Of a DNA stretch of 34,615 nt, positions 4,064 through 32,196 are shown one piece after another. Where the stretch lies: positions 1-34,615 of the forward strand of contig QHRD01000012.1 of the NCBI GenBank assembly GCA_003220005.1. Direction: 5' to 3'. Position 1 is the stretch's first letter. The number at the start of each line of letters is the position of its first letter. The stretch is from Verrucomicrobiota bacterium (lineage in GTDB: Bacteria > Verrucomicrobiota > Verrucomicrobiia > Chthoniobacterales > UBA10450). A model generated the notes under the pieces. It had not been told where the DNA came from, searched no databases, and saw only the letters and a list, made by a program, of their open reading frames with translations. The position numbers and the translations under genes are program-made.

Positions 4064-5776
4064 TTGATGAAAGAAAGCATCCGTGAAATCGATAGCGAAA
4101 TCACTTTGGGGAGCGGTCGGCAGAACAAAAATCTCATGAAAAGTTCCACTCCAGTAAGAAGCAGGATTCAAACAATCACAGTTTGGCGCAGGCGAGGCTC
4201 GTTGCAGGACGCTCTTGGCCCTCTGGTGAGAATGCTCCGCGGACGCCTGGGGGCACCATTGTTTTTCGCATGCGCGGCGGTGTTGGTCCAACCGTGTGCC
4301 GCTCAATGGGAGTTTACCGGGAGCCTTAAAACTGCGCGGGAGTTATACACTGCGACGCTGTTGCCCGATGGTGAGGTTCTCGCCGCAGGCGGTGGGACGA
4401 ATGGTTCGCAGAGTTATCCAAATCCGTATATAAAGAGCGCGGAACTTTACGCTCCGGCGACGGGAGCTTGGAGGATCACAGGCAGCCTCAATTATGTTCG
4501 GTCCCTCCACACGGCGACGCTGCTGCCCAGCGGCAAGGTGCTAGTCGCGGGAGGCTGGCCCGAGGCTACCTCGACTGGGACCGCGGAACTGTATGATCCG
4601 GCCACGAGAAGTTGGACGTTGACCGGCAACTTCAATGCTAGACACGCCGCCCATACTGCAACACTGCTCTTCGATGGGAAGGTGTTGGTTGCAGGCGGGT
4701 CACACGCCCCTAGCAGCGCGGAACTGTACGATCCGGCTACGGGAACTTGGAGTCTCACCGGCAACCTTACTACTCCCCGTTACGGTTACCACACGGCGAC
4801 GTTGCTCTTCGACGGCAGGGTGCTGGTGGCAGGCGGGACGTACAACCTCGCGAGCGCGGAACTGTACAATCCGGCCACGGGAACTTGGACTTCTACCGGC
4901 AGTCTTCATACCGGGCGGTCGAATCACACGGCGACGTTGCTACTCAACGGCAAGGTGCTGGTAGCTGGAGGGATGAATCAGAGTTTTACTTTTGGAGCAC
5001 TGACAAGCACGGAACTCTACGACCCGGCCACGGGAACTTGGACGGTCACAGGCGACCTCAATGTTCCCCGCTTGAACCATACCGCAACGATGCTTCCGGA
5101 TGGTAAGGTGTTGGTCGCAGGTGGCCAGGGCGAGAGCACTTTTTTAGCCGCCGCGGAAATTTACGACCCGGCCACGGGAACTTGGACGGTCACAGGCAGT
5201 CTCAATAATGCTCGGGGCAACCACACGGCGACGTTGCTCTCCAATGGCATCGTGCTCGTCGCAGGTGGCCGAAACACCGAGGGTGTCATTATCGCGAGCG
5301 CGGAAACGTTCAATTCCACTATTACGCCAACCCCGACGCCAACCGCAACGGCGACTGCGACTGCAACTGCAACTCCGACTGCAACTGCAACGGCGACCGC
5401 AACGGCTACCGCGACCGCAACGGCAACGGCAACTGCAACTCCGACTGCAACTGCAACTCCGACTGCAACTGCAACGGCAACGGCGACTCCGACTGCAACG
5501 GCAACCGCGACCGCAACGCCGACACCTCGACCGATTCAGCTCACTGGCGACGGGAGAAGGGTCGGGGGAATAAATACATCGCGTCTCAAATGGAGAGGGG
5601 CGACCTCGACCAACGTCGATGTTTACCGCGACGGGAATGTGATTGCGACAGTACCGAACAATGGTTTGTATGACGACTCCACCGGCACCACCGGCCAGGC
5701 TAGTTTCATATATCAGGTGTGTGAAGCTGGAACGCAGACGTGCTCTAACACTGTGACTGTGAATTTCGGGCCGTAA
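4064..5776 (+). CDS. Secreted Kelch-like propeller (7 units) with a Thr-Ala/Pro linker and C-terminal FnIII-like domain
   Basis: Seven units of the form NHTATLLPDGKVLVAGG...SAELYDPATGTW; candidate signal region MLRGRLGAPLFFACAAVLVQPCAAQ; the true start may be an internal ATG (e.g. 4136). Confidence 0.85.
   Translation: MMKESIREIDSEITLGSGRQNKNLMKSSTPVRSRIQTITVWRRRGSLQDALGPLVRMLRGRLGAPLFFACAAVLVQPCAAQWEFTGSLKTARELYTATLLPDGEVLAAGGGTNGSQSYPNPYIKSAELYAPATGAWRITGSLNYVRSLHTATLLPSGKVLVAGGWPEATSTGTAELYDPATRSWTLTGNFNARHAAHTATLLFDGKVLVAGGSHAPSSAELYDPATGTWSLTGNLTTPRYGYHTATLLFDGRVLVAGGTYNLASAELYNPATGTWTSTGSLHTGRSNHTATLLLNGKVLVAGGMNQSFTFGALTSTELYDPATGTWTVTGDLNVPRLNHTATMLPDGKVLVAGGQGESTFLAAAEIYDPATGTWTVTGSLNNARGNHTATLLSNGIVLVAGGRNTEGVIIASAETFNSTITPTPTPTATATATATATPTATATATATATATATATATATPTATATPTATATATATPTATATATATPTPRPIQLTGDGRRVGGINTSRLKWRGATSTNVDVYRDGNVIATVPNNGLYDDSTGTTGQASFIYQVCEAGTQTCSNTVTVNFGP
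5324..5532 (+). repeat. Low-complexity array encoding (TA)n/(TP)n linker
   Basis: Runs of actgcaactgcaactccgactgcaacggcgaccgca; translation TPTPTPTATATATATATPTATATATATATATATATATATPTATATPT... Confidence 0.9.
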
Positions 5777-5783
5777 GGCGACA

Positions 5784-5840
5784 ATTAAGCCACTTCTCTA
5801 TTCAACGCGGTGTCCGCCAACTGCGCTATCTCTGGCCCAT
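5784..5840 (-). repeat. Inverted-repeat copy 2 (~55 bp), partner at 780-835
   Basis: Reverse complement of 5813..5840 equals 780..807 exactly; the flank is similar. Confidence 0.8.
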
Positions 5841-26265: not shown

Positions 26266-27303
26266 TCACACACGCTGCATTCCCTTTGTTGCCGCTAAGC
26301 GAAAGTTGTCGAGCCATAGCTCAACCAGCTCGAGTTCCGCGGATGGAAAAATTCCTGCAGCTATTAAGACCTCATAGCAGCGGTGGAGATTGTCGCCAAT
26401 TTGCGCTTCACCGCTTTCCAGTTGTAGCCGCGAAAGGACATTGGCAATTTCTTTGTTTCGCGTGTAGCCCGGCACTTCGTCTGCAAAATCTCGGTCAAGA
26501 TCGTGCTGGTTGCGATCCTGAAATACTTCGGGCGCATGGAATGTAATTCCGTATCCGAGCTCCCAAAGGCACCGCTGGGCGATAAAACTTTTCCAGATGT
26601 CGCACGTCCGAAACGAGCAGTAACTTGGAAGATATAACAATGGATATGCCAGGCGCCACCACCACGTGCTCTGGGTGTTGAACGAGCACCAGTTTCCAGC
26701 CTCCAGCACCACCGGTACGCCATCGCTGAACGCGAAATTGCGATCTAAGATCAGTCGCCACACCGCATCCACATCTGGCGAACCGTTGGCAAGTCCCTGT
26801 TGGATCGGACTACGAGTCGCGCCGACCATTTTCGTTTCAGGCGCCTCCGAGCGAACTTCGGACAACGGAAAGCCGCGCGGCCAAATCAGCTCTTTACTGA
26901 AGTATCGGTATGCATTCACCCATCGTGCACTTGTCGGACCGACAGAGCGAACAGCGGCCACGGACTCGGAACGAAGCTGCCATGAATCAAGCGGGGCGTT
27001 GTCGTCGTCAGTTTCATAAAGGAAATCTGCCCCGGCAGCAATCGCGTGAAGATACGCAACATTTTTGCGACTGTAAGAGCCAACCGGCAATTTCCTGGCT
27101 AAGTCAAACTGGCTCGCCTGCTGGTCCGCCAGTGTTAAAAAATCAATTCGACAGCCTTCAGCGAAATACTGGCTTCGGAAATGCGCCGGGCCTGGTTTAT
27201 CACCGGCTACGACGAGTAAGCCGCCACATTCCGTCAGCTTCCTAACAAGCCTAACAACTTCGCGTGTCGGTTCCTGAATTGTGGTGATTACAGCGGCAAA
27301 CAT
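26266..27303 (-). CDS. STELLO/DUF288-like putative glycosyltransferase
   Basis: FAAVITTIQEPTREVVRLVRKLTECGGLLVVAGDKPGP...YSRKNVAYLHAIAAGADFLYETDDDNAPLDSW; RCLWELGYGITFHAPEVFQDRNQHDLDRDFADEVPGY. Confidence 0.6.
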   Translation of the reverse strand: MFAAVITTIQEPTREVVRLVRKLTECGGLLVVAGDKPGPAHFRSQYFAEGCRIDFLTLADQQASQFDLARKLPVGSYSRKNVAYLHAIAAGADFLYETDDDNAPLDSWQLRSESVAAVRSVGPTSARWVNAYRYFSKELIWPRGFPLSEVRSEAPETKMVGATRSPIQQGLANGSPDVDAVWRLILDRNFAFSDGVPVVLEAGNWCSFNTQSTWWWRLAYPLLYLPSYCSFRTCDIWKSFIAQRCLWELGYGITFHAPEVFQDRNQHDLDRDFADEVPGYTRNKEIANVLSRLQLESGEAQIGDNLHRCYEVLIAAGIFPSAELELVELWLDNFRLAATKGMQRV

Positions 27304-27313
27304 TTCGCAACAC

Positions 27314-27591
27314 TAGTGTTGTGCAACCGGTATGGCTTGCCAATCGCCGCAAGGAGTTTGGGCGAATTTCAAGAAGCGAGCGAAGCGCCTGTATCCTTTG
27401 CGATACTGGCCGAGCGAGCGACGCAGAAATTCGCTCAAAGAACTGCGGCCCGCAGGGTTGAGTTGAAAATGGCCTGGCGCCTGCGTTGCATCTCGGTCGC
27501 AGGTCGCAAAGGACATGCTCCCTCGCCGCGCCTTGGCGGCGAGCCATTTTGAACTCAACGATTGGCAAGTCATACCGGTCACACAACACTA
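27314..27591. mobile_element. 278-bp palindrome-ended element, copy 1 (MITE-like or structured repeat; non-coding)
   Basis: Ends TAGTGTTGTGCAACCGGTATGGCTTGCCAATCG / CGATTGGCAAGTCATACCGGTCACACAACACTA (about 30/33 inverted match); same length as copy 2, about 18 mismatches. Confidence 0.88.
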
Positions 27592-28719
27592 AATAACCGA
27601 ATTTAACGCTTCCATGAATTGCTGTTGCAAACCGACTGGCGAAAATTCTGTCTCATACGCGCGTCGCATTCGCGCACCGAGTTCCTGTTGCAAAGCTCTA
27701 TCTCTTTTTAAATCCGCAAGCGCAGCCAGCAACATGCGCGCATCGGGGTCGGTTACGCAGAGGGCAGCCTCACTTTTTCTTGCCCACTGCACCACGGCAG
27801 ATGATTCCGGCGCCCAGATAACAACGGGCCGGCTGGCTCGCGAGTAATCGACAAGCTTCGTTGCGAAACATGTCTCCGTACGTCGCCGCTGTGCTGCGTC
27901 AAAAAACATTACGACCAAGTAGGCGTCGAACGAACCCAGCCAGTGGTCAAAGCCTGATCCGGGTTCGAAATTATGCAGTAGATGACGATCTCTCATTTCA
28001 TGCATCAGCGCTTGCGGCCATCGCGGGCGTCCTCGGAATTCGATCCGAATGTCCGTCTGTTTTACCGCTAACTGAGCCAGCTCAGCCAGCATATCACTGT
28101 AATCAAACATGTTGCCAGTGTACCCAACCCGAAACTCGCGAGCCGCACCGTTACAATTTGATGACCTGATTGGCTCTGCATCTGGAATGGGCAATATAAC
28201 GCGTGCGTTACGATGCGGGCCCAATGCGTTGAGCATTCCTTCACTAATGCCCAGGCTCAGATCCGCAGATCGATAAAGCTCGAGAAAACGCCGCTCCAGT
28301 TGCTTGCGTAGTAGGGTATGAACCCAGGCAATGTCGGGCCACCAGTCGTCGAATCTCACAACCAGTGGCAATCCGTGGCGCTTCGCATAGCGTTGCGCTA
28401 CCCAGCAGCCGCTGCCGTATGCGAGCGTTAAAACAACTGTCCGCGCCCGGGCAGGCGGTGCGGCCAGGTGCTTTTCTAACGGCAATGTAGTGTGCATCAG
28501 GTAATCGACGTCACCTGCCCATCGTCGTGCCGGCGTTCGCATGAGCCGTGGGATAATCTTGGAGTAAAAAGGGCCGTGGACAATCTCGTGATGCTCAGCC
28601 GGCAGAATCTGCAGTCGAATGCCGCGCCGGTTGACCAGATGTCGATGCAGTGTCACCGCAGCAGCCGTACTTTTCTCGGGCCGGACCGAGGAAATGGCAA
28701 TCACGTTAATGTCGTCCAT
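27589..28719 (-). CDS. Glycosyltransferase (GT4-like), paralogue of 28706..29887
   Basis: DDINVIAISSVRPEKSTAAAVTLHRHLVNRRG...FRVGYTGNMFDYSDMLAELAQLAVKQTDIRIEFRGRPRWPQ; stop TAG is formed by the end of the 278-bp element. Confidence 0.75.
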   Translation of the reverse strand: MDDINVIAISSVRPEKSTAAAVTLHRHLVNRRGIRLQILPAEHHEIVHGPFYSKIIPRLMRTPARRWAGDVDYLMHTTLPLEKHLAAPPARARTVVLTLAYGSGCWVAQRYAKRHGLPLVVRFDDWWPDIAWVHTLLRKQLERRFLELYRSADLSLGISEGMLNALGPHRNARVILPIPDAEPIRSSNCNGAAREFRVGYTGNMFDYSDMLAELAQLAVKQTDIRIEFRGRPRWPQALMHEMRDRHLLHNFEPGSGFDHWLGSFDAYLVVMFFDAAQRRRTETCFATKLVDYSRASRPVVIWAPESSAVVQWARKSEAALCVTDPDARMLLAALADLKRDRALQQELGARMRRAYETEFSPVGLQQQFMEALNSVI

Positions 28720-29887
28720 CGACCAAGTCGGTTATTTTCCGGACGAAGATATCCTGCAAGCGATCGGGATTGAACACGGTTTGATGCAGTTGCAACGCCT
28801 CATTTGAGAGCTTTTCACTTAGCGCTGAATCTGCGGCAATTTGCCGGCAAAGGGAAACTACTGCGTCGGCGTCACTGCTGGAGACGACAGATGCTCCGCC
28901 ATGCTTTCGAGCGACACGGACTGGCGTGCAGTACTCTGGCCCCCATAGGATCACAGGTTTTCCAAATGCGACGTAGTCCAGAAATTTTGTGGTGAAGCTC
29001 GTGCGCATGAACAGTTCATGTTCCTTCTCGAAGCTCATCACAACCAGTAGCGCGTCGGCGCTGGCTAGCACTTCCGCGGCTTCTTCTGGTGGCTTGAAGC
29101 CGAGATAGGCGCCGCTTGCCTGCGCGCGCTCGAGAGTTTGCCTGGGCCAGTCTGCACTCGGTCCGATCACGATGATTTCCAAGTCGTTCGTCGCTTCGAT
29201 TTTTTCAATGAGCGAGCAGAGCATCCGGCCATAGAAATTTTTCACTGCACCAACATAGACCAGCCGAAATTTCCCATTGGGTCGCGGCCACGTGTTTTCC
29301 ACAGGCACGCGATATTTTCCCGGCATGGGATAAATGACATGGCTGTTCGGATGCGAGCCTAGCATCTCCTGCATGCCATCGCTGGTGCAAAAAGCGAGAT
29401 CACATGCCGCATAAAGCTCTCGGTACCGGCGGCTCAAGATTCCTCGCGTCCATTTGTGACCGTAGTGGCCTTTCGTCACGGGAAACCAGTCGAGGAAAAG
29501 CCCGGCCAGCGGCAACCCATGCCGTTGCGCGGTTTTTCGAGCGATCTCACTCAAACCGCATTCTGCCAGAGTAAGGATTACGTCCGGTTCGAATTGTTGT
29601 ACCGCGTCTTCCAACGCTTCGTTGGCTGTCAGCGGCCAGATGAAATTTTCGTAGTCTGTGGTCCACGCAGCCGACCGTGGACCGAATCGGCTCTTTCGCA
29701 ATCGATGAATCAGGTACGGCAGCCGTAGAGGAGTATGGACCAGAAGGCCGTCCTCAAAATCAGCGTTACTGGCCACGTGCAGTTTGAATGGATTTCCCTC
29801 CACTAGATGCCGGTGCATGACGATGCGCACGCCACAATCGTTCTTTGGCGGAACAATGCTTACGAGAAGCAGCCTCAGCTTTTCCAT
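28706..29887 (-). CDS. Glycosyltransferase (GT4-like), paralogue of 27589..28719
   Basis: EKLRLLLVSIVPPKNDCGVRIVMHRHLVEGNPF...KFRLVYVGAVKNFYGRMLCSLIEKIEATNDLEIIVIGPSADWPRQTLERA. Confidence 0.8.
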   Translation of the reverse strand: MEKLRLLLVSIVPPKNDCGVRIVMHRHLVEGNPFKLHVASNADFEDGLLVHTPLRLPYLIHRLRKSRFGPRSAAWTTDYENFIWPLTANEALEDAVQQFEPDVILTLAECGLSEIARKTAQRHGLPLAGLFLDWFPVTKGHYGHKWTRGILSRRYRELYAACDLAFCTSDGMQEMLGSHPNSHVIYPMPGKYRVPVENTWPRPNGKFRLVYVGAVKNFYGRMLCSLIEKIEATNDLEIIVIGPSADWPRQTLERAQASGAYLGFKPPEEAAEVLASADALLVVMSFEKEHELFMRTSFTTKFLDYVAFGKPVILWGPEYCTPVRVARKHGGASVVSSSDADAVVSLCRQIAADSALSEKLSNEALQLHQTVFNPDRLQDIFVRKITDLVDGRH

Positions 29888-29888
29888 T

Positions 29889-30166
29889 TAGTGTTGTGTA
29901 ACTGGTATGGCTTGCCAATCGCCGCAAGGAGTTTGGGCGAATTTCAAGAAGCAAGCGAAGCGCCTGTATCCGCTGCGATACCGACCGAGCGAGCGACGCA
30001 GAAATTCGCCCAAAGAAACGCGGCCCGAAGGGTTGAATTGAAAATGGCCTGGCGCCTGCGTTGCATCTCGGTCGCAGGTCGCAGAAGACATGCTCCCTCG
30101 CCGCGCCTTGGCGGCGGGCCATTTTGAACTCAACGATTGGCAAGCCATATCGGTTACACAACACTA
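29889..30166. mobile_element. 278-bp palindrome-ended element, copy 2
   Basis: Ends TAGTGTTGTGTAACTGGTATGGCTTGCCAATCG / CGATTGGCAAGCCATATCGGTTACACAACACTA (31/33 inverted match; both mismatches become G:U on the + strand RNA). Confidence 0.9.
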
Positions 30167-31111
30167 GCGAGTACGCCGAAACCAGAAGCTGCCAGCCGAC
30201 ACGCCGGGCTTGTACGAAGGAAATGCGTTCATGAGCAACTCCGGGTATTTGATCTGCATCCACTGACCGGCCCAGAGCACTTCAAATGTCGTATTGAAGC
30301 TTAGGAAGGCCTGCAAGAGGTACTGCTCATTCCAGAAACGATGCCAATCCAACACCCACTGTTTCGGATATTCCAGGGGAATAAAGATGTCGTGCACGTG
30401 CACAACGACGCCCGGCTGGATGTGCGGCAAAACCTCCAGAAACAAAAATTGCATGTCGCTGCCGATTTTACACACATGCGAGGAATCGATGAACAGAATG
30501 TCGTTTTCGCGGAGCGATTCAAACTCACTAAGCGAAACGTCTTGGACAGGTACCCGTCGCAGCTCAACGCCTGATGGAAGCTTGCGTTCCAGTTCCGCAG
30601 ACCCGAACGGGTCAATGGCAACGAAACGGCACGGACATCCATCCATGCCGTTGCGACGTAACGCATCGGCCGCAAGGAGTGTCGAGAAACCGGACCCGAT
30701 TTCGTACATGCGCCGCGGTTTCAAGAGACGGATTATCCCAAAGAGCATTTCCGCGTCCACCGCCTCGAAAGCAACGTTTCCCAGGTAAAACTGAAACTCT
30801 GCCGTCGAAGCGCCTTTCGGGATGACTATGTACTCGCCCTTAAATTTTGTAACGATCTCTGAGAGCAGTTGCTTTTGCGCCTCTTCGCGCATATCCATGC
30901 CCGGCAAATCGCTAACGCGGTCCCAAAGCGAAGGGGCCAAAACGCGCGTATCAGGAATTGGCTGGTAGTTGTCAGACGGCAAAACATGAAAACCATGACC
31001 TTGCCACAGCTCAAAGTATTTTGGATCTGGCGCCAGTCTCCGTAGCAGTGGTGCTATCACACGCGCTGTAACATCGCGTGCAAACTGCTTCGCTTTACTC
31101 AGCACAGCCAT
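30164..31111 (-). CDS. Class I SAM-dependent methyltransferase (Methyltransf_24-like)
   Basis: RRMYEIGSGFSTLLAADALRRNGMDGCPCRFVAIDPFGSAELERKLPSGVELRRVPVQDVSLSEFESLRENDILFIDSSHV...VVHVHDIFIPLEYP. Confidence 0.8.
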   Translation of the reverse strand: MAVLSKAKQFARDVTARVIAPLLRRLAPDPKYFELWQGHGFHVLPSDNYQPIPDTRVLAPSLWDRVSDLPGMDMREEAQKQLLSEIVTKFKGEYIVIPKGASTAEFQFYLGNVAFEAVDAEMLFGIIRLLKPRRMYEIGSGFSTLLAADALRRNGMDGCPCRFVAIDPFGSAELERKLPSGVELRRVPVQDVSLSEFESLRENDILFIDSSHVCKIGSDMQFLFLEVLPHIQPGVVVHVHDIFIPLEYPKQWVLDWHRFWNEQYLLQAFLSFNTTFEVLWAGQWMQIKYPELLMNAFPSYKPGVSAGSFWFRRTR

Positions 31112-31116
31112 ACTTG

Positions 31117-32079
31117 TTATAAGGCCACCGAAAAAGAATGAAAGCGTAATCTAAGTGCGTCACGGTAAAGCACGTGCCGCATCCAGTGGACGTAGTGCCG
31201 CGAGTAATAGCCCTCATCGCTCATGTTGCGGGAGCGAAATTTAAATACGTCATCAAACTCAACGAGACTTAGTTTCTTCGGGAATAGGTCGCCGCCGATT
31301 TTCACGGCGCTCGCAATGATGGTTTGCTCGCATGAGCTGTCCTGAGGAAAAGGCAACGCTTCCTGCGCCATGCTGCGCAGGACATCGGGCGGCATAAGCT
31401 CGCCATGCAAAGCCACGATCCCGCTATTTACAAAAGGCGGCTCCAACACCTGCGCGCAATGCCGCAGCGCCATCTCCCGCCGCTGATGGCAGTTGCCCTC
31501 ATGCAAACCGCGAGGTTTCGTCCACGATGCAGGTTCGCCTAAAAGCAGCAGCGGATCTCCGAACCAAAGAATGTCGGCATCCACGAATAGCACCGGCTGT
31601 TTCCTCGCCTCAACCACAATCGCGGCGACTTTAAGACCGTAGGGGCTTTCGCGGGCGTAGTCGGCCAACTCCGGAAGATCAGCAGCCGAAGCAGCCTCGC
31701 AGATTTGTTGTCGCGTCAAGACAGTGATAGGCGCAGGCCACCAGCCAAAGACATCTGCGAACTCACTCGCCGTCCAAGTGCCGTCCGATACGGCGGTAAT
31801 TTCCGGCAAGAAAGTCCATGAACGGAGCAGCGAAAACAAGCTTTCCCTCCACATCAGCCAGTGCGCGCGATCACACATGGTGAGATAGCGGAAGTTCGCG
31901 ATTGGTTTGGCTGGCTGCGGAGGAATCGACCAGCGCGAAAGGATATTGTGCGCAATCTCGCCCAAGCGCACCGAGACATTCATCCCGCTGAATGGTCGCA
32001 GAAGACCAAGCGCGAATTTTCGCGCGAGCGCTTTTCGCTGCGCACTCGTGCTCTTAGATTTAGAAACCCTGCTATACAT
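31117..32079 (-). CDS. Putative nucleotide-diphospho-sugar transferase-like protein
   Basis: FRYLTMCDRAHWLMWRESLFSLLRSWTFLPEITAVSDG...LKVAAIVVEARKQPVLFVDADILWFGDPLLLLGEPASWTKPRG; start placed at internal ATG 32079 because the track's N-terminus (MFRFAQHDN) is repeat-derived. Confidence 0.6.
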   Translation of the reverse strand: MYSRVSKSKSTSAQRKALARKFALGLLRPFSGMNVSVRLGEIAHNILSRWSIPPQPAKPIANFRYLTMCDRAHWLMWRESLFSLLRSWTFLPEITAVSDGTWTASEFADVFGWWPAPITVLTRQQICEAASAADLPELADYARESPYGLKVAAIVVEARKQPVLFVDADILWFGDPLLLLGEPASWTKPRGLHEGNCHQRREMALRHCAQVLEPPFVNSGIVALHGELMPPDVLRSMAQEALPFPQDSSCEQTIIASAVKIGGDLFPKKLSLVEFDDVFKFRSRNMSDEGYYSRHYVHWMRHVLYRDALRLRFHSFSVAL

Positions 32080-32087
32080 AGGAGCAT

Positions 32088-32181
32088 TGTCATGTTGAGC
32101 GAAGCGAAACATCTCTGTCTATTGCGCTGTGCTGGATCGGTCGGGAATCATCAGAGATTCTTCGCTTCGCTCAGAACGACA
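32088..32181. repeat. Short palindrome-ended repeat of the 'gagcgaagcgaa' type
   Basis: TGTCATGTTGAGCGAAGCGAAACATCTC ... GAGATTCTTCGCTTCGCTCAGAACGACA; inverted ends match at about 23/28. Confidence 0.8.
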
Positions 32182-32196
32182 TTTATGAGATAGGAC

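Follow-up and report, generated by a model that had tools for sequence, protein, structure and literature searches.

A 278-bp repeat of Verrucomicrobiota bounded by terminal inverted repeats, probably mobilised by an IS630-type transposase and carrying a conserved hairpin pair

The window, the 34,615-nt stretch of soil Verrucomicrobiota DNA analysed here, contains two copies of a 278-bp element that is very probably a MITE, moved in trans by a transposase of the IS630/Tc1-mariner type and carrying a conserved, separable pair of hairpins as cargo. Sequence comparison supplies the defined ends, the TA target, the empty sites, the copies elsewhere and the IS630-family elements with similar ends; actual mobilisation of the element we infer from these.

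Structure of the two copies

Both copies are exactly 278 bp long and agree at 260 of 278 positions (93.5%), which bears out the equal length and the ~93-94% identity reported in the sequence-only reading. The 33-nt terminal inverted repeats (TIRs) described there are present on both copies, with complementarities of 91% and 94%, and start with TAGTGTTGTG. The four genes adjoining the copies, part of a polysaccharide-type cluster, all lie on the minus strand, and the copies occupy the intergenic gaps between them. The arrangement is as follows:

26266..27303, minus strand: gene left of copy 1 with a glycosyltransferase domain of STELLO type; 10 nt separate its start codon from the element
27314..27591, plus strand: element copy 1, 278 bp with the TA at both ends included; site empty in genomes G018 and G026
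27314..27346, plus strand: left TIR of copy 1, reading TAGTGTTGTGCAACCGGTATGGCTTGCCAATCG (inverted-repeat pair I5)
27559..27591, minus strand: right TIR of copy 1 (inverted-repeat pair I5)
27589..28719, minus strand: gene between the copies without a Pfam match, its TAG stop codon overlapping the last bases of copy 1
28706..29887, minus strand: gene between the copies, glycosyltransferase group 1, ATG 1 nt from copy 2
29889..30166, plus strand: element copy 2, 278 bp, orientation as copy 1; site empty in G018
29889..29921, plus strand: left TIR of copy 2 (inverted-repeat pair I4)
30134..30166, minus strand: right TIR of copy 2 (inverted-repeat pair I4)
30164..31111, minus strand: gene right of copy 2 with a Methyltransf_24 domain, the final bases of copy 2 supplying its TAG stop codon

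Four overlapping small ORFs tested within the copies matched no Pfam family, and the corresponding frames hold stops in most sister copies; the ORFs are therefore by-products of the repeat, as had been proposed together with the absence of a transposase inside. At 278 bp and without a transposase gene, the element falls within the short (<600 bp) class of MITEs. The unit recurs at 88–95% identity at unrelated places in three sister genomes, which makes it a repeat far beyond chance.

Copy number and distribution

Counting copies and aligning their boundaries in the source and related genomes, the check proposed with the sequence-only reading, yielded multi-copy relatives. Searching the element's own draft genome (2.53 Mb, 82% complete) by sequence returned two full copies and one 50-bp remnant at contig C166:1040-1089 (locus L007 of genome G000). 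This remnant consists of TIR joined to TIR in a CTAG context and resembles the zero-arm elements (46–69 bp) of a relative, G040. Within the genus, four genomes together carry ten full copies, of which two are those of the window; all are at least 88% identical to copy 1, and the TIRs are the exact limit of homology among copies at different places. For G040 we counted 104 TIR ends, many of them at contig ends, corresponding to about 50 related elements. The earlier suggestion that the repeat may be abundant in its host thus applies to this relative but not to the element's own genome. Repeats of this kind break genome assemblies.

A pattern scan of GTDB genomes gave clear elements of this kind only in Verrucomicrobiota, namely in the soil MAGs AV34, AV72 and AV94, in three CP_ MAGs and in Chthoniobacterales and Spartobacteria bins. 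No DNA similar to the element was found in the plasmid and phage records searched. Two pattern matches in viral contigs were not elements on inspection, and a second pattern matched none.

At 93.5%, the window's two copies resemble each other more closely than either resembles its orthologue on G034:C229 (90.6% and 91.4%), a hint that gene conversion may have taken place between them.

Empty sites and target choice

Related genomes differ in the occupancy of the two sites. G018 has the same genes with neither element present, G026 has an empty site at the position of copy 1 and a filled site for copy 2 as far as the contig end, and both sites are filled in G034. The empty site reads CAACAC-TA-GATAACC and the filled site CAACAC-TA-(GTGTTGTG...CACAACAC)-TA-(A/G)ATAACC, a comparison that fits a TA target duplication and supports a clean insertion of the element.

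Among 40 elements of the TAGTGT type, 38 lie in a YTAR target (CTAG 27, CTAA 7, TTAG 4). A 4-bp duplication of CTAG instead of TA was ruled out: the left TA is followed by G in nearly every copy, the right TA by a variable base, and the G hence belongs to the element.

IS630-family transposons with similar ends

For the IS630-family element ISY100, it is established that insertion takes place at TA and duplicates this dinucleotide (PMC2170065), and a CTAG preference of IS630 is cited in the reference list of the same paper. The YTAR and CTAG frequencies given above match the target preference reported for IS630. IS630-family transposons of 1.1–1.2 kb occur in the same order, with DDE_3 genes flanked by TAGTG(T)..TGT ends:

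L215, same order: DDE_3 transposase element, TIR TAGTGTAGTGTCTC
L217, same order: DDE_3 transposase element, TIR TAGTGTAGTGTCCAA
L224, same order: DDE_3 transposase element, TIR TAGTGTCCTGTCAG
L223, same order: DDE_3 transposase element, TIR TAGTGTGCTGTCAG
L211, own genus: DDE_3 transposase element, TIR TAGTGCAGTGTATC

The ends of the MITEs (TAGTGTCCTGTCCC, TAGTGTACCGTCTC, TAGTGTGCTGTCATCC and, in the window, TAGTGTTGTGTAAC) resemble these TIRs. Together with the YTAR/CTAG targets, this resemblance makes mobilisation by an IS630-type enzyme likely. That the element is a MITE or another non-autonomous repeat, as first proposed, is well supported by homology stopping at the TIRs, the empty TA sites, the multi-copy relatives and the similar-ended transposons.

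The proposed search for a transposase gene with matching TIRs gave IS630-family transposons with similar ends in the order and genus, but none with the exact TIR of the window. No IS630 transposase with an exact TAGTGTTGTGTAACCGG end was found, the nearest matches agreeing at ~11 of 14–15 end positions. A family-wide scan for the exact window TIR yielded no transposon. It did yield one more element of the kind described here, in G209, and a MITE family of another kind, in G211. The own draft genome, 82% complete, gave no match to a DDE_3 (IS630) transposase. In G040, no transposase was found between unpaired ends, many of which lie at contig ends, and its IS630 on contig C91 was rejected as a partner, its end reading TAGTACTTGTATC.

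In the mechanism proposed, an IS630/Tc1-mariner-type transposase would bind the TIRs in trans, cut the element out and insert it into a TA within YTAR, mostly CTAG, duplicating the TA. The partner transposase may be gone from the own genome or missing in the draft.

A conserved pair of inverted hairpins

The element as a whole is predicted to fold into an outer TIR stem and two long arms, with z = -12.2 and -10.5 as RNA for the two strands of copy 1 and -9.3 as DNA for copy 2. The two arms, A and B, share homology and represent one hairpin type on opposite strands. They were delimited as follows, with matches to our covariance model R1:

27347..27448, plus strand: hairpin arm A of copy 1, R1 match 27355-27440 on the plus strand, 71.1 bits
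27449..27457, no strand: linker between the arms of copy 1, CCCGCAGGG, of a CCC..AGGG type that recurs in relatives
27457..27558, minus strand: hairpin arm B of copy 1, R1 match 27467-27550 on the minus strand, 81.1 bits
29922..30023, plus strand: hairpin arm A of copy 2, R1 match 29930-30015, 66.4 bits
30024..30032, no strand: linker sequence between the arms of copy 2
30033..30133, minus strand: hairpin arm B of copy 2, R1 match 30042-30125, 82.9 bits

In the basal stem, 14 of 16 pairs have changed on both sides among 20 diverse arms, giving 94 two-sided cells compared with 32.5 (sd 4.4) in shuffles and 24–32 in slid controls. Higher up, the sequence hardly varies and can be read as tandem mismatches arranged in a ladder; the counts that follow come from related copies and are not independent events. 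In 44 type A arms the ladder is G.A (40), A.G (43), G-C (42), C-G (41), G.A (41) and A.G (40). The 47 type B arms begin with G.A (33), A.G (37) and either G-C (29) or C-G (14), and continue with G.A (44), A.G (43), G-C (40), G-C (38) and G.A (42). Judged by sequence complementarity, the upper arm would contain non-canonical G.A pairs, and the swap from G-C to C-G between the mismatches is in favour of a stacked helix.

The number of arms per element varies from none (46–69 bp) through one (181 bp) and two (264–284 bp) to three (409 bp). A search of the elements against Rfam 15 gave no credible match; the only overlaps were with one plant and one animal microRNA family at E-values of 0.25–0.46, far below their gathering scores. 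Our searches of the open-licence literature returned no report of this hairpin. In some arms, at L107, L117, L127, L165 and L185, an extra small palindrome, GGTCCGAGCCGGACTGGCG, replaces the GCGAG segment and is possibly a nested mini-repeat.

The same arm within different terminal inverted repeats

We searched 388 sampled Verrucomicrobiota genomes with R1 and obtained arm matches in 30 of them, from 24 genera; with 11 candidates scored per genome, strong matches may be missed and the weakest may be due to chance. TAGTGT-type TIRs enclose several of the matches (L250, L256, L258), and others are enclosed by clearly different TIRs: AGAACCTGTTTGGATAAAA (G425), CTAGGGTGTGTTTTAAAA (G398), GAGACTGTCYAATAA (G495) and AGGGTCTGTTCCCGTTTC (G415). 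The G495 ends were counted 109 times, compared with 4 in the control. In all 19 G495 pairs compared from the list in which TNA stands at both ends, the two middle bases are identical, so the duplication is TNA. Such a duplication typifies the IS1031 group within the IS5 family, and the G495 type appears IS5/IS1031-like. No transposase with ends of this type was found in G495.

G211, from another genus of the same family, provides the reverse case, a different MITE family (L356-L360) with TAGTGTTCTGTAAC ends around unrelated inner hairpins. Ends and cargo are therefore separable both ways. Since the same arm type occurs inside the TIRs of other transposon types across the phylum, its behaviour is that of a separable module and not of IS630 sequence in decay.

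The only plausible-looking candidate outside Verrucomicrobiota was a single arm-like hairpin on a Paceibacterota contig (L104:2220-2321, E = 0.004).

Possible role of the hairpins

The conserved cargo inside the TIRs is a single hairpin type present twice, in opposite orientations. For tandem G.A mismatches to matter, a single strand must fold back on itself; the arms may therefore act as folded single strands, with RNA or single-stranded/cruciform DNA as their probable working form. Because the arms are inverted, insertion in either orientation would provide a transcript with one arm carrying the G.A strand. In our reading, the arm pair is a cargo that would act as a folded single strand and be packaged by different transposases.

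MITEs are usually viewed as shrunken copies of one transposon, and here one conserved hairpin pair recurs across a phylum, enclosed by the ends of several types of transposon. These several types, the covarying stems and the fixed non-canonical pairs suggest that the interior of the element, and not the ends alone, is under selection, which turns the question whether MITE interiors matter into a testable one. Instead of selection, the frequent transfer of young elements could also account for part of the arm conservation. The R1 model can be used for finding and masking such repeats.

Alternative explanations

Two alternatives concern the locus itself. The equal orientation of the copies, 2.3 kb apart, might recall a segmental duplication of a 278-bp stretch within the cluster, but the clean empty sites, and the occurrence of copies with the same ends at unrelated loci of other genomes, already refute it, and we give it practically no chance; the outcome named beforehand as decisive, only two copies with homology running into the flanks, was not what we found. 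It is also unlikely that the element is retained for cis-regulation of the polysaccharide operon, as an intergenic RNA hairpin affecting processing, termination or stability. Its strong RNA fold, the position of both copies exactly between stop and start codons of co-directional genes, and the presence of both in the window genome and G034 agree with such a role. In G018, however, the genes keep their order with both elements absent, and copy 1 is missing from G026; the element is thus dispensable to the operon, and precise intergenic placement is also what survives selection against gene disruption.

The other alternatives concern the interior of the MITE. We hold only tentatively that the paired G.A hairpin is an independent selected module, widespread in Verrucomicrobiota and repeatedly packaged in the ends of unrelated DDE transposons (IS630-type with TA, IS5/IS1031-like with TNA), where it would act as folded RNA or single-stranded DNA for its own spread or for the host. 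A possible though doubtful alternative is an ordinary IS630-derived MITE whose inner hairpins are palindromic filler without a role, their similarity reflecting the spread of recent copies. MITEs commonly fold into stable stems (PMC10969869, PMC2229807), and zero-arm and one-arm elements exist; yet basal stems vary by paired substitutions while the arm sequence and the G.A ladder persist, and a common IS630 origin does not account for the occurrence of one arm type in differing TIRs. With its two inverted hairpins and their conserved unpaired motif, the element also resembles a REP pair, but a REP/REPIN-like element, mobilised through recognition of the inverted pair by a tyrosine (RAYT) transposase, is very improbable: the TIRs and their TA or TNA duplications indicate DDE transposases, zero-arm elements have the same ends, and no GTAG or CGTC tag was noted in the alignments of the ~100-nt arms.

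Comparison with known small repeats

In layout, the nearest relatives of the MITE are BOX (modular), RUP (IS630 ends) and CIR (two arms) (PMC3049150, PMC2229807). RUP, the repeat unit of pneumococcus, is mobilised by IS630-Spn1 (PMC2229807, PMC3049150) and is likewise a small non-autonomous repeat with IS630-like TIRs inserted at TA. It is, however, a simple 107-bp element, and the portions of PMC2229807 and PMC3049150 drawn on here describe no conserved hairpin pair across TIR types. BOX of Streptococcus pneumoniae shares fixed ends, a variable number of inner modules and a stem with a side arm (PMC3049150), and S. suis BOX modules occur between different end modules (PMC3049150). BOX differs in sequence and phylum and has tandem boxB inside, whereas the elements here have 0–3 arms, usually two in opposite directions; the likeness is one of modular layout alone and we do not claim BOX membership.

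CIR of Caulobacter and relatives also has two hairpin arms with a linker and is conserved between species, but it is ~110 bp long, exposes GANTC and is described without an end-to-end stem, unlike the window element, in which the TIRs form an outer stem (PMC2229807). Correia/NEMIS of Neisseria are TIR-bounded intergenic MITEs with TA termini as well (PMC2229807); they are shorter, and the portion of that paper used here describes no inverted pair of conserved G.A hairpins. REP/BIME/REPIN sequences share inverted hairpin pairs with a conserved unpaired motif (PMC3733652). REPs are palindromes of 20–40 bp with GTAG or CGTC tags (PMC3733652), a definition that the arms, ~100 nt long and inside DDE-type TIRs, do not fit.

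Other repeats in the window

No tRNA gene was found in the window. At 32002-32187 lies what looks like another small intergenic palindromic repeat, with a weak Rfam match to AaHKsRNA41 (29.6 bits; gathering score 97) over the inverted repeat TGTCATGTTGAGCGAAGCG...CGCTTCGCTCAGAACGACA. Inverted repeats of 39 nt at 780-818 and 5802-5840, 92% complementary, bound ~5 kb and could be the ends of an insertion; a second, imperfect inverted pair (818-854 and 5765-5801) adjoins them. One predicted protein, encoded on the minus strand at 920-2458, contains a 300-bp direct repeat (1293-1592 and 1761-2060, 96% identical) and spacers rich in proline and threonine. Six Kelch-like repeats of ~118–150 bp occupy 4438-5269 in the ORF 4064-5776 and are followed by a long threonine-rich repeat tail.
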